From Chloroflexota bacterium (lineage in GTDB: Bacteria; Chloroflexota; Dormibacteria; Aeolococcales; Aeolococcaceae): DNA of 32,532 nucleotides. Where the stretch lies: NCBI GenBank assembly GCA_005880445.1, contig VBGJ01000028.1, forward strand, positions 1 to 32,532. The letters run 5' to 3'. How positions within the stretch are numbered: the stretch's first letter is position 1; the number at the start of each line of letters is the position of its first letter. The notes under the pieces were generated by a model. The model was not told the DNA's origin. It was given only the letters and a program-made list of their open reading frames with translations, and made no database searches. Shown piece by piece: positions 4,527 through 28,132 of this stretch. Both the position numbers and the translations under genes were made by a program.

Positions 4527-5846
4527 TCACGCGGCGATAACCTCGACGGCGGCCTCCGACACCGTGACACGACGACGTCCCGGTATCAGCGCGGCGGCCA
4601 GGGCACCCACCGCGACCACGATGCTCCCGACGGTGATCGCCGGCACCACCCCCGCGACGAACGCGTGGCTGGAGGTGTATCCGCCGCTGTGGGCGAAGAT
4701 CGACGCGAGCACGGCCACGCCGAGCACACCGCCCAGCTCGCGAATCGCATTGTTGGCGCCCGAAGCCTTGCCCTCGTTCTCCCGGCGCACCGAGCTCAGC
4801 ACGAGGTTCGCCACCGGCGCGAAGAAGAGTCCCATGCCGATGCCGCTCAGGACGAACGGGATGACCAGGGAGCTGTACGGCGTCGTCGCGGTGGTGACCT
4901 GGGCGATCCAGAAGAGACCGGCGGCCTGGAGCGCGAGCCCGAGCGCCAGCAAGGTGCGTCCGGAGATCCGATCCGAGAGCGCACCGGCGGTCGGCGCGAC
5001 CAGAAGCGGCATCGCCGTCCACGGAAGGATGCGCATACCCGCGCCCAGCGGCGACAACCCCTGCACCGTCTGGAAAAACTGTGCCAGCAGGAACACCGAC
5101 CCGAACATGCCGAAGAACATCAACATCGATGCAACATTCGCCCCGCTGAACGTGCGGTTGCGGAAGAAGCGCATCGGCAGCATCGGCGCACGTGCACGGA
5201 ATTCGTACGTGACGAAGATGGCAAGAACGAGCACGCCCGCGGCGAGGCTGGACAAGATCTCCGGGCTCGTCCACCCCTGCGAGTTGGCGCGCACCAGGCC
5301 CCACACGACGGCGAAGAGCCCAGCGCTGGCGAGTGCAAGTCCGGCGAGGTCGAGGTGGCGATCCGGTCCACGGCTCTCGGTCAGGCGCACCCTTGCCAGC
5401 GGCGCAAGCGCAAGGCCGATGGGGACATTGAGCCAGAAGATGAGCGCGAGCCCGCGTCGCTCTGGGCGAACGGCCGCGCTCAGCAGCGTGAGCGTCAGCG
5501 GCGTGACCATGGCCGCCCCCGCCCCCTGAACCGCCCGGGCCGCGATCAGCCAGGTTGCGCTCGGCGCCAGCGCGGCCGCGGCCGACCCGAGGCTGAACAC
5601 GGCAAGGCCGAGTGTGAAGATGCGCCGGCGGCCGAACCGATCACCTAGGGCGGCCCCGGTCAGGAGCAGCACGGCGAAGGTGAGCGTGTACGCGTTCACC
5701 GTCCACTCGAGCTGCTGCAGGTCGGCGTGGAGGTCGCGCCGGATCACGGGAAGGGCGGTGGTCACGACCAGGTTGTCGAGCGTGACCATGAACAACGCCA
5801 CCGCGGTGATGAGGAAGGTCCACGTGGTCCGTGCTCTCGCTGTCAT
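4527..5846 (-). CDS. DHA2-type MFS drug/proton antiporter lacking the motif-C helix region
   Basis: This 439-residue multi-span membrane protein belongs to the EmrB/QacA (DHA2) branch of the major facilitator superfamily. It shows the family's LDNLVVTTALPVI, EWTVNAYTLTFAVLLLTG and GDRFGRRRIF (motif A), and RAVQGAGAAMVTP. After RPERRGLAL the sequence jumps directly to IFWLNVPIG, at about residue 135. In relatives these pieces are separated by about 30 residues containing the GxxxGPxxGG motif C of helix 5. The protein therefore appears to lack that helix by an in-frame deletion, and its transport activity is doubtful. A strong AAGGAGG lies 6 nt before the ATG. The tetR gene and an operator-like dyad lie upstream. 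Confidence 0.85.
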   Translation of the reverse strand: MTARARTTWTFLITAVALFMVTLDNLVVTTALPVIRRDLHADLQQLEWTVNAYTLTFAVLLLTGAALGDRFGRRRIFTLGLAVFSLGSAAAALAPSATWLIAARAVQGAGAAMVTPLTLTLLSAAVRPERRGLALIFWLNVPIGLALAPLARVRLTESRGPDRHLDLAGLALASAGLFAVVWGLVRANSQGWTSPEILSSLAAGVLVLAIFVTYEFRARAPMLPMRFFRNRTFSGANVASMLMFFGMFGSVFLLAQFFQTVQGLSPLGAGMRILPWTAMPLLVAPTAGALSDRISGRTLLALGLALQAAGLFWIAQVTTATTPYSSLVIPFVLSGIGMGLFFAPVANLVLSSVRRENEGKASGANNAIRELGGVLGVAVLASIFAHSGGYTSSHAFVAGVVPAITVGSIVVAVGALAAALIPGRRRVTVSEAAVEVIAA

Positions 5847-5888
5847 GGTTGTCCTCCTTGCGCCTGGTTTCGACTGGTGCCGTCTTCT

Positions 5889-5908
5889 CTTAGTGATTAC
5901 TCACTCAC
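5889..5908. promoter_or_regulatory. Candidate TetR operator upstream of the MFS gene
   Basis: A dyad with core GTGATTACTCAC lies 43 bp before the MFS start codon. It matches the dyad in front of tetR at 16 of 20 positions, with one mismatch in the 12-bp core. Two copies, one at each gene of the pair, are what an autoregulating TetR repressor would need. That the neighbouring TetR protein binds here is inference. Confidence 0.7.
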
Positions 5909-7546: not shown

Positions 7547-10500
7547 CTATCCGGCGGCGCGAGACTCCGCGCGGCGCAGCCCGACGACGACGCCGCCCTC
7601 GAGCTGCACGTCAGCCTCGAAGCGCACACCGAGCACCGAGCTGACGCCGTCTGCATCGATGGTGACGCCCCACAGGATGTCCGCTGCGGCCATCGTGATG
7701 TGGTTGTGGGTGACGATGATGAACTGCTGCAACTCCGCGAGCCGGCGCAGCAGGCGGGTGAAGCGCACCACATTGCTGTCGTCGAGCGCAGCGTCAACTT
7801 CGTCGAACACGTAAAACGGGCTCGGGTTGACCTGCTGAAGGGCGAGCACGGTGGCGAGCGCGGTCATCGACCGCTCACCGCCCGACAACAGCCGCAGCGG
7901 GCACAACCGCTTTCCCGGCGGTTGCGCGAGGATCTCGACCCCTGGGCGGCGCTCCGCGACTTCCGCGATCGACTCCTCGTCTGCATCATCGACCACCGGC
8001 TCCTCGAGCCGCAGCGTCGCCTTGCCGCCCGGAAAGAGCTCGGCAAACAGTTGCTGAAAGTGGAAGGAAACTGCGCCGAAGACGGCATCGAACCGCCGCT
8101 CCAGATCTCCGGCTAGCCGGCGCGTGAGCGTGTGGATGTCATCGCATGCGGCGCCGATGTCGTCGCGATGAATGCGCACCGCGGTAACGCGCGCTTCTAG
8201 CGAAGCGTGTTGCTCGGGCGCGAGCGCGTTGACCAGACCGAGCGCGGTAATGCGTCGCTCGAGGCGCACGATCTCGCGCTCCGCCCGATCCATCGCCTGC
8301 GGATCCCACTCGACGGCATCGTCGTCGGCCTCGCCGCGCACCGCCTCGGCGAGCCGCGCGACGCTAGCCTCGGCGTCCGACACCTCGGCGAGCGCAGCCG
8401 TTCGCTCGTCCTCGGCGCGAGCCACGCTCACCGCGACCTCCGCGTGCTCCGCCTCGAGGGCGATCACCGCCCGCTCCAGGTCCGGCAGCGGCACCGAGCT
8501 TGCGTCGAGCGCGGCGCGCGCGACGTCGACTGCCGCCCGCTCGACCACGGCAGACCCACGGGCCGCACGACCCATGACCAGCGCGGCCAGTGCATACGAC
8601 TCGGCATCCACCACGCGAAGCTCGGCGGCCGCGACGCGAGCTCGGGCGCTCTCCATGAGGCGATCGGTGTCCTGCGACGGCTGCGCGAGGGATCCGCGTC
8701 TGCGAGCCGCGTCGATCTCGATCAGGACTCGCTGCCGGGTCTCCGCGGCCGCACCGCCGGCGGCGCGAGCCGCCGCTGCAGCCTGCTCCAGGCGCCGCCT
8801 CGCATCACCCGCGCCGGCGATCGCGGCCGAGGCCTCGGCTGCCGCCGACTCGGCACGACGCTTCGCTTCTCGCTCCCGGGCTGCGAGCTCGAGCGGCTCA
8901 GCCGGCCTTCCACCACCGCGTATCCCCGCCACGCTCACCACGCGTCCGTCGGGAAGCACGGCGACTCTGGCGCCGGCGGCGAGTGCGGCTCGCCCCGACT
9001 CGAGGCTGTCCGCGAACCACACGCCGTCGAGCAGACGGATGATCGCGTCGAGTGCATCCGGGGAGGCATCGATTGCCGAAGCCGCGCTGCGCCACGGCGC
9101 GGGGACCCGCCCGGCGGCACCGGGCAGGGTGTGGCTCAGGGCAAAGAGCTCCTCGCGGGGGCCGGCGGTGTCGAGATACTCGGCGGCGCCGTCCACGTCG
9201 TCCACGAGCCACGCACCGAGGTGGCCCTCGAGCGCCGCGGCCACCGCGGTCGCGTCGCGTTCATCGCGGACCGAGATGCTGTCGACCAGTCTGCGACCGT
9301 TGAGCGAGCCCTCGGCGACAGCACGTGCCACACCTCCCTCGGCGCCGATGGCGCCGGCGACGAGCCCGCGCAGCATCGCCGCCTCGGCCAGCGCGCTGCG
9401 AGCTTTCTCTGAGGTCGCGTCCACGTCCGCTTGTGCCGCGTTGACCTCGTCCCATGCGTGGTCGACGGCCGCCTGAGTCCGCGCGAAGGCGTCGTCGGCG
9501 TCCGCGGCGCTGGGGCCCGGGCCGTCGTCGCTTGCAGGAGCTGCTCGTTCCCCGTCCGGCTCCGATGGCGGGACGAGCTGCGCCGGTTCGACCGCCAACA
9601 GGTCGGCACGGGCGGACTCGAGCTCCGCGTTCGCGATCGCGCGCTGCAGGACCGCGCTGCGCAACCTGTCTGCCAGGCGGCGCGCCTCGCCGTCGGCGCG
9701 CTCGACCGAGAGACGGGCCTCCTCGAGGCGAGCAGCGGCATCGTCGCGGGCAGCCCGCGCCTGCTCGAGCCTTTGCCGCTCGCCCCCGGCGCGACCGGCG
9801 AAGGCAGCGTCTGCCTCGGTGGCGGCCTCGAGCCGTGACGAGGCTTGCTCCAGCCGCCGGCGCGCCTGCTTCAGGCCGCCGCGAGCCGCCCGCCACTCCT
9901 CGCGAGCCAGGCTGCCCCTCAGCTCCGCCAGGCGCGTGGTGGCGTTCCGCTGCTCCAGAGCCGCCGTCGCTTGCTGAGCGAGCTCCTCGAGACGCGGCTC
10001 CGCGTCACCGAGCAGATCGTGCATGCGGCTCAGGGCGATCTCGGCTCGGCCCAGCCGGCTCAGCGTCTCCTCGCACGCCGCTCGCAAGCCGCGAACCCCG
10101 GCGGCTTGCTCGACCAGCGCCCGGCGTTGCGCCGGCGACGCCTCGATGATGGAGTCGATGTCGTTCTGGGCGACGACCGCATATCCGTTCTGGGTCAGCC
10201 CGGTGTTACCCAGGAGCCGCTCCAGGTCGCGGAGCCGGACGCGCTCCCCATTGATGCGAAATTCGGTGTCGTGGGCCGCGCGCACGACGCGGCGGGTGAC
10301 CGCCACCTCCGGATCCTCGGTGGCAAGCCTTCCCTCCTCGTTGTCGATGACGATCTCCACCTCAGCCAGGTTGACGCGCTGCCGCCGGCCCCCGCCGGCG
10401 TACACCACCTCGTCCATGCGCTGGCCCCGGAGCTCGCGGGCATTCGTCTCCCCGAGCGCCCACCGCACGGCATCGACGAGATTGCTCTTGCCACTGCCGT

Positions 10501-23609: not shown

Positions 23610-24107
23610 TCAGGAGGCAGCGCGACGCGTCGAAGCGCGAGGACGGCGAAGGGAGCGCAGCAGCGACGCCATCTCGACGGCCGCCATGGCGGCCTCGGCG
23701 CCCTTGTTGCCGTGCTTGCCACCGGCGCGGTCGAGTGCCTGTTCGACGCTGTCCGTGGTGAGGATCCCGAACCCCGACGGGATGCCGGTGATGGCGTGGA
23801 TCGACGCGACGCCCCGGGCCGCCTCTCCGGCGACGAGGTCGAAATGCGCAGTCTCGCCCCGGATCACCGCTCCGACGCACACCACGGCGTCGACGGACCC
23901 GTGCTCGGCGAGCTCGCGTGCGGCGACGGGGATCTCGAAGCTCCCAGGCACCCACACGACGGTGATGTCGTCCTCGTCCGCCCCCAGCCGGAGCAGCGCG
24001 CTGATCGCACCATCGAGCAGGCGCTGCGTGACGATCTCGTTGAAGCGCCCGGCGACGACGCCGATACGCATCCCCGTTGCGTCGAGCTTGCCCGCATGCA
24101 CGGTCAT
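23610..24107 (-). CDS. ribH: 6,7-dimethyl-8-ribityllumazine synthase RibH
   Basis: RibH condenses the ribityl pyrimidine with dihydroxybutanone phosphate to give lumazine, the substrate of riboflavin synthase. The 165-residue protein has [51 protein letters not shown] (active-site His in TAHFD), [18 protein letters not shown] and [16 protein letters not shown] at 24107 or the adjacent GTG 24110 is the start. Its product would feed ribE, which is broken in this sequence. Confidence 0.96.
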
Positions 24108-24144
24108 CACGACGATCGTCGCACGGGCGTGGGCCTGGCGTTGG

Positions 24145-25368
24145 TCACGATCCGCCGTGCGGGTCGAGCACGTCGAGCAGGTGACCGAGCTTCTCCCGCT
24201 TCGCCCGCAGATAGCGCTCGCTGTGCGTGGTGGCCGGAATAACCAACGGCGCCTGGTCGGTCACCTCCAACCCGTAGCCGCCGAGGCCGTAGTACTTCTT
24301 CGGATTGTTCGTGAGCACGATGATGCGCCGCGCTCCCAGATCCGCGAGGATCTGCGTCCCGATGCCGTAGTCACGCGAATCGACGGGAAGGCCCAGACGA
24401 ACGTTGGCCTCGACGGTGTCGAACCCGTCGTCCTGCAGCGCATAGGCGCGGAGCTTGTCCATCAGACCGATGCCCCTGCCCTCCTGTCGCAGGTACACCA
24501 GCACGCCGCGTCCTTCGGTGGCGATGATCGTCATCGCTTTTTGCAGCTGCGCCTGGCAGTCGCAGCGCTGGGAGCCGAAGACATCGCCGGTGAGACACTC
24601 GCTGTGTACGCGCACCAGCACCGGCTCGCCGTCGTCCACCCTCCCCCACACCAGCGCGATGTGCGTCGCGTGCGTGATCAGATCCTCGTAGCCGTGCGCC
24701 GTCACCGTGCCGAACTCGGTGGGCAGCATGGTCGTGGCGCCACGCACCACGAGACGTTCTGTTCGCCGCCGGTATGCGATGAGGTCGTTGATCGCAACGA
24801 TCTTCACATCGTGTTCCGCGGCGAAGTGGTCGAGGTCGGGGCGGCGTGCCATGCGCCCGTCCTCGCGCATGATCTCGCAGATGACGCCGCCGGGAAACCG
24901 TCCGGCGAGCTTGCAGAGGTCGACGATCGCCTCGGTCTGACCGGCGCGCTCGAGGACTCCGCCGGTGGCGGCGCGCAGCGGAAAGGTGTGACCCGGCTTG
25001 GCGAAATCGCTCGGCTTCGCGTGCTCGTCGCAGAGCATGCGGATGGTGGTGGCGCGGTCGAATGCGGAGATCCCCGTGGTGACGCCATGTCCGACGCCGT
25101 CGACGCTCACGGTGAACGCGGTGCCGAACCGCGACGTGTTCTGGTCCACCATGGCGCTGAGTCCGAGCTCGTCCAGGCGCCATCCCTCTGTGGAAACGCA
25201 CACGAGCCCGCGCGCATGCGTGGCCATGAAGTTGACCGCTTCCGGGGTGATGCGATCCGCAGCGACGGCCAGGTCGCCTTCGTTCTCGCGGTCCTCGTCG
25301 TCCACGATGATGACGAAGCGACCGGCCCGGACGTCCGCAATCGCGTCGTCGACGGCTGCCAGGGGCAT
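24145..25368 (-). CDS. ribA: Bifunctional DHBP synthase / GTP cyclohydrolase II RibBA
   Basis: This 407-residue fusion supplies both starting branches of riboflavin synthesis. The N-terminal 3,4-dihydroxy-2-butanone-4-phosphate synthase half has [11 protein letters not shown] (22-32), [16 protein letters not shown] and GHTFPLRA. The C-terminal GTP cyclohydrolase II half has zinc ligands Cys258, Cys269 and Cys271 ([18 protein letters not shown]), [10 protein letters not shown] and [11 protein letters not shown]. Both active sites look intact. It starts 6 nt after ribE and ends 37 nt before ribH. Confidence 0.96.
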
Positions 25369-25374
25369 TTGCGC

Positions 25375-25897
25375 TCAGCCCTTCCGAACCACTGCGCCGG
25401 CCGGCGCGGTGACCGAGTCACGACCGGCGAGTGCGCGCTGCACGTAGCGAGCCACCAGGTCGGCCTCGATGTTGACGCGTGAACCTGCGGACCAGCTTCC
25501 GGCCGTCGTGTGCGCGAGCGTGTGCGGGATCAGCGACACGGTGAACGATGCGCCAGCGCGCATTGCCGTCGTCACGGAGCATCGTGATCGTCCCCACGGC
25601 ATCGACATGGCCGGCGAGGAGATGGCCGCCGATGGGATCGCCCAGCGCGAGGCTGGCCTCCAGGTTCACCGCGTCACCCGGCCGCAGGGATCCGAGCGTG
25701 GTCCGCCGCTCTGTCTCCGGCATGACATCGGCGACGAACGCGCCGTCGGGCAGGTCCACCACCGTGAGGCACACGCCATTCACGGCGACGCTGTCACCGG
25801 TGTGCAGGCTGCCGGACACCGCGCGCGACTCCACCGCGAGGCGGCCGCTGCCGTTGGCGGTCACCACGCCCATCTCGCTGACGATGCCGCTGAACAT
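25375..25897 (-). pseudogene. ribE: Riboflavin synthase alpha chain, disrupted by internal deletion and frameshift
   Basis: The first barrel is normal. It begins MFSGIVSEMGVV and has GDSVAVNGVCLTVV, DVMPETERRTTLG and VNLEASLALGDPIGGH. The second begins with AGHVDAVGTI and then, near 25545-25556 (after NARW), the reading frame shifts. ASFTVSLIPHTLAHTT and VNIEADLVARYVQRAL continue in another frame. Relatives have about 30 more residues between these points, including the second KGS...VDGxSLT motif, and that part is missing. The segment is 523 nt, not a multiple of three. The ribD-ribE-ribBA-ribH order confirms identity. Either the gene is truly broken or the assembly lost about 95 nt here. Confidence 0.85.
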
Positions 25898-27020: not shown

Positions 27021-28132
27021 ACTCGCGCGACGCGCCGGTGCGGGCCCAGCGTGCCGTCGGGGCGCAGCTCGCGCCGCGCCTCGAGCAGTGCCCGGAGTTG
27101 CCCACACGCCGCGTCCGCGGCGTTGCCACGTGTGTCGCGCACCGTGACGCGCACGCCGTGCAGCTCTCCCAGGAAGGCGCGGGCCCTCGCCGGATCCGGA
27201 GGTCCCCATGGGCTGTCGCTGATCCGGTTCATGGGAATGACGTTCACGTGAGCGCGGGCCCTCGCCGCAAGGTCGCGGAGCGCACGCGCCTGCTCGGTCG
27301 AGTCGTTGACGCCGGCGATCAGGCACCACTCGAATGTGATCCGCCGCCCGGTGCGGCGCGCATATCGCTCGCCCGCAGCCACGAGGTCGTGTATCGGATG
27401 GGCGCGGTTCAGCGGCACCAGGCGGTCTCGCAGCGCATCGGTAGCGGCGTGGAGCGAGATCGCCAGCGTGACCGGCGGGCCCTCCGCGGCAAGGCGGTCG
27501 ATCGCCGGGACGACGCCGCTCGTCGACACCGTGATGCGACGGGCGCTGATCCCTCCGTGCACGGTGAGGACTCGCACCGATTCGAGGGTCGCGTCCAGAT
27601 TGGCAAGCGGCTCGCCCATCCCCATGTACACCACGTGTGTGACGGGGCCGAGATCGCGGTGATGCAGCGCAGCCGCAGCGGCGCGCACCTGGTCGACGAT
27701 CTCCGCGGCCGTGCAACTGCGCCGTAGACCCATGTGCCCCGTCGCGCAAAACGGGCAGCCGACGGCGCAACCGACCTGGCTGCTCACACACACGGTCGAT
27801 CGCCGGCGTATGCCGCGCCTGGCGACTGTCTCCATCGCGACGGTCTCCACGGCGAGCCCGTCGGCCAGCCGGCACAGCAGCTTGACGGTGGCGCCCGCGT
27901 CTGCCTCCGATGCGCCGGCGACGTCGACGGTCGAGAATGTCAGCGTCTCGGCGAGGCGCTCGCGCAGCGGCGCCCCCAGCTGCCGGATGTCCACGAAGCC
28001 GGTCACGAACGGCTGCCACGCCGCCAGCCGCAGCTGGCCTGCGCGCCAGGCCGGCTCGCCCAGCGTCGCCAAGGTCAGCCGTAGCGAGTTGTCATCGATG
28101 GTGCTGATCGGTGGCGCGGTCACGTCTCCCAT
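27017..28132 (-). CDS. rlmN: Dual-specificity RNA methyltransferase RlmN
   Basis: This is a radical-SAM methylase of A2503 in 23S rRNA and A37 in some tRNAs. In the 371-residue protein the cluster motif is Cys122-x3-Cys126-x2-Cys129 ([12 protein letters not shown]). [45 protein letters not shown] and the C-terminal catalytic Cys in DAACGQL complete the family picture. It heads the riboflavin cluster, with a 4-nt overlap into ribD. The ATG shares bases with a divergent tiny plus-strand ORF. Confidence 0.96.

Follow-up and report, generated by a model that had tools for sequence, protein, structure and literature searches.

The riboflavin synthase gene (ribE) of the window, by which we mean the whole 32,532-nt stretch of DNA analysed, lacks 98 nt relative to most relatives and changes reading frame where they are missing; sequence comparison indicates with high confidence that the contig was locally misassembled, within a metagenome bin built from short reads. 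The riboflavin synthase of the living cell is most likely of the ordinary two-barrel kind. The bin comprises 251 contigs (2.2 Mb, 86% complete), of which the window is C2, and losses of similar size recur in unrelated genes across it.

The ribE gene as assembled

The features of the rib operon that bear on this finding are the following.

25554..25897, minus strand: 5' part of ribE, with the whole N-terminal barrel and the beginning of the linker to the C-terminal barrel (Lum_binding positions 1-85/86; NCBIfam riboflavin synthase 1-120/192)
25544..25553, minus strand: ribE junction, with about 98 nt gone and a frame switch (paired tblastn matches of relatives)
25375..25543, minus strand: 3' part of ribE in the other frame, with the end of the C-terminal barrel and the stop (Lum_binding 47-86/86; NCBIfam riboflavin synthase 145-191/192)
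24145..25368, minus strand: ribBA, intact (NCBIfam PRK09311, 599.9 bits, cut-off 569)
23610..24110, minus strand: ribH, intact (TIGR00114, 173.8 bits, cut-off 84.6)

On the minus strand, the N-terminal frame of ribE begins with the ATG at 25897, translates as MFSGIV...VDAVGTITMLRDDGNARW and tracks the relatives as far as DDGNARW, after which the frame switches inside 25544-25553 to give ASFTVSLIPHT. The second frame reads ASFTVSLIPHTLAHTTAGSW...VNIEADLVARYVQRAL, this C-terminal part running separately from ASFTVSLIPHTLAHTTAGSW to RYVQRAL, with its stop at 25375. When relatives are aligned by tblastn, the left match stops at 25553 and the right one restarts at 25545-25551, and the exact break point can be placed no more finely than 25544-25553. 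Most of the relatives that span the junction have 98 nt more there (92-107 with a few references), and the frame change across it is -3 to -1. In the relatives, the block that is gone carries the KG(S/C)(I/V)AVDG(I/V)SLTVV motif of the C-terminal barrel, and the KG(S/C)xAVDGxSLT signature of riboflavin synthases is absent at the junction. The original prediction, which had described a loss of about 95 nt, a jump from NARW to ASFTVSLIPHT in a different frame and the disappearance of the KGS...VDGxSLT motif, was therefore close in size and right on the other two counts.

RibE (TIGR00187, PRK09289) is characterized by having both lumazine-binding barrels complete and in the same frame. The assembled gene resembles it in its complete N-terminal barrel (Lum_binding 1-85/86), its C-terminal end and its place in a rib operon, but differs in lacking 98 nt of the C-terminal barrel, of which only positions 47-86/86 are matched, in a different frame; neither piece scores above the curated riboflavin synthase cut-off. 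The adjoining ribBA and ribH are both full length and above their curated cut-offs, as had been proposed. Rfam and tRNA scans over the window returned no matches, and among named genomes there is no close relative (best RibBA identity, 62%).

Unmarked losses elsewhere in the bin

Local errors in metagenome bins, with effects on protein-coding genes, have been described (Chen et al. 2020, PMC7111523). Genes of the well-assembled relative G008 and of other genomes were compared with about 560 kb of the bin, 238 kb of it covered by homologues. This survey yielded seven candidates, ribE included, for unmarked losses of 87-116 nt in unrelated genes; five are clear, and the count spans about a quarter of the bin. 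The six candidates besides ribE are listed below; for magnesium chelatase, TANGO2 and HtrA, the name comes from our own reading of the sequences, not from a family search.

Window, 4530..5900, minus strand: EmrB/DHA2-type MFS gene, 87 nt lost in frame at about 5441/5442, between RGLAL and IFWLNVPIG
Contig C38: response regulator, 91 nt lost with a frameshift (Pfam receiver positions 47-80 gone)
Contig C33: magnesium-chelatase-like ATPase, 92 nt lost with a frameshift
Contig C25: glycosyltransferase family 4 gene, 93 nt lost in frame, 21/25 identical residues either side
Contig C11: TANGO2/NRDE-like gene, 116 nt lost with a frameshift (less certain)
Contig C44: HtrA-like PDZ domain, 114 nt lost in frame (less certain)

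The internal deletion that had been noted in the MFS gene is thus present, removing about 29 residues at the expected position of motif C, and probably has the same technical cause as the ribE loss; the suggestion of a cause common to both genes gains support from the recurrence of same-size losses across the bin. Three of the seven losses are in frame and four shift it, about as expected by chance, so that the six further candidates strike unrelated genes without selection on frame. No clear case of a small frameshift was found in the surveyed 560 kb, which counts against ordinary gene decay. The five listed losses on contigs other than the window, of 91-116 nt and unmarked, lie at L122 (about 8283), L189 (about 930), L239 (about 527), L236 (about 8250) and L242 (about 19930). 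Candidates in L125, L117, L114, L131, L174, L251 and L252 were dropped by inspection, judged after viewing, as shadow frames, gene borders, low similarity or natural variation.

The reverse comparison, which spanned 265 kb of homologous sequence, turned up no loss of this kind in the better-assembled G008; its secA-like gene differs by 96 nt, but this was left out of the count, as it resembles an insertion in the query. Were the seven events distributed randomly in proportion to covered length, the chance of all of them landing in the bin (G000) would be about 0.005, a rough figure because the sorting was done by eye and the query sets for the two genomes were not identical.

Marked gaps and the riboflavin pathway in relatives

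Marked N gaps interrupt ribE in three relatives. In G031 and G022, NN replaces 100-104 real bases relative to siblings, and in G016, NNNNN replaces 66 bases at about the same place as the ribE junction of the window; NN gaps elsewhere in the relatives replace 59, 63 and 155 bases. These lengths, taken from the measurable gaps against siblings of about 85-96% identity, indicate that gap sizes in the relatives' assemblies are often underestimated by roughly 60-150 bases. Matches to ribH are partial or split in G016 (C315, about 8154-8285) and G017 (C75, about 27715-28039), possibly reflecting gaps of the same kind as that of ribE.

Across the 61 genomes compared (the bin's own and relatives), ribE was found in 44 and DHBP synthase/ribBA in exactly the same 44, showing that the two are kept or absent together. 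The compact form of ribE, for which relatives were inspected, was seen in none of the set. Six genomes of one family in the same class (G050, G052, G054, G056, G058, and G060; 89-95% complete) are without riboflavin synthase, lumazine synthase, and DHBP synthase, and this family is possibly dependent on outside riboflavin.

Origin of the ribE break

Because similar-sized losses occur in unrelated genes of the bin and relatives have marked gaps in ribE itself, the ribE loss is almost certainly technical. That bases are missing, and that this recurs across the bin, is directly seen; we infer that two pieces on either side of an unread stretch were joined without Ns, the distance between them being underestimated by about 100 nt; a scaffold join, gap closing, or graph simplification would each be a candidate for the step at fault. 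As with the local assembly errors and scaffolding gaps of metagenome-assembled genomes (Chen et al. 2020, PMC7111523), a wrong join sequence would here break a protein-coding gene, but the ribE join differs from these in having no Ns and in being judged from the contig, not from reads. Counted against an assembly error are that the window is free of N characters, that in relatives the lost stretch stands out neither in GC nor in structure, and that the 114- and 116-nt losses are less certain.

Several more specific causes were considered and set aside. The lost ribE segment has below-average GC in 20 relatives (mean rank 0.25), contrary to GC-driven dropout, and is not unusually structured in 20 relatives (mean rank 0.69, where 0 is most stable), contrary to hairpin-driven dropout; in five other genes, the segments lost show no GC or hairpin trend. 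The joins in the MFS, glycosyltransferase, and response regulator genes are nearly blunt when read by codons, so that joining by way of a 10-base overlap is unsupported for these three.

On the other hand, the contig itself reads as though a 98-nt deletion had recently inactivated ribE, in a cell that would need imported riboflavin and whose operon has not yet decayed, and related families do show absence of the whole pathway. Such an inactivation is improbable: losses of the same size affect unrelated genes of the bin, the sampled relatives keep or lack the riboflavin pathway as a unit, and the remainder of the operon is undamaged. The ribE loss would have to be an isolated event merely resembling the others in size in an otherwise intact operon, which is unlikely. 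A broken synthase had been taken to imply a second ribE, flavin uptake or an assembly error. Neither of the first two found support: the window copy is the sole ribE of the bin (251 contigs, 86% complete), the piece gone from it was not found elsewhere there (one weak match, E 0.36), and ECF-type and PnuC-type transporters, the two uptake types searched, were not found in the bin at the search cut-off. A loss of ribE by the organism itself is thus unsupported, given the same-size losses in unrelated genes and the marked ribE gaps of relatives.

Metagenome bins can mix strains, and a real deletion in a minority strain that entered the consensus while other strains remained intact would be compatible with the contig; this is very improbable, since it alone would not explain why unrelated genes show several losses of 87-116 nt. 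Equally far-fetched is the idea that ribE works in its assembled form, by frameshifting or as a compact single barrel complemented by a second polypeptide: its N-terminal barrel is intact, but 98 missing nt are beyond repair by frameshifting, nothing else in the bin encodes the C-terminal barrel motif, and no relative has a compact form.

An assembly error carries consequences beyond this gene. In the part of the bin examined, a loss of roughly 100 nt damages a gene about once every 80 kb with no N to show it, and unmarked losses at such a rate would yield false pseudogenes and false calls of auxotrophy; such events can be recognized by their narrow size range and by their striking unrelated genes irrespective of frame. 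Were the ribE loss real, a broken riboflavin synthase in an otherwise full operon would be a very recent step toward dependence on outside flavin; as it stands, the break is almost certainly not a real biological feature of this organism.
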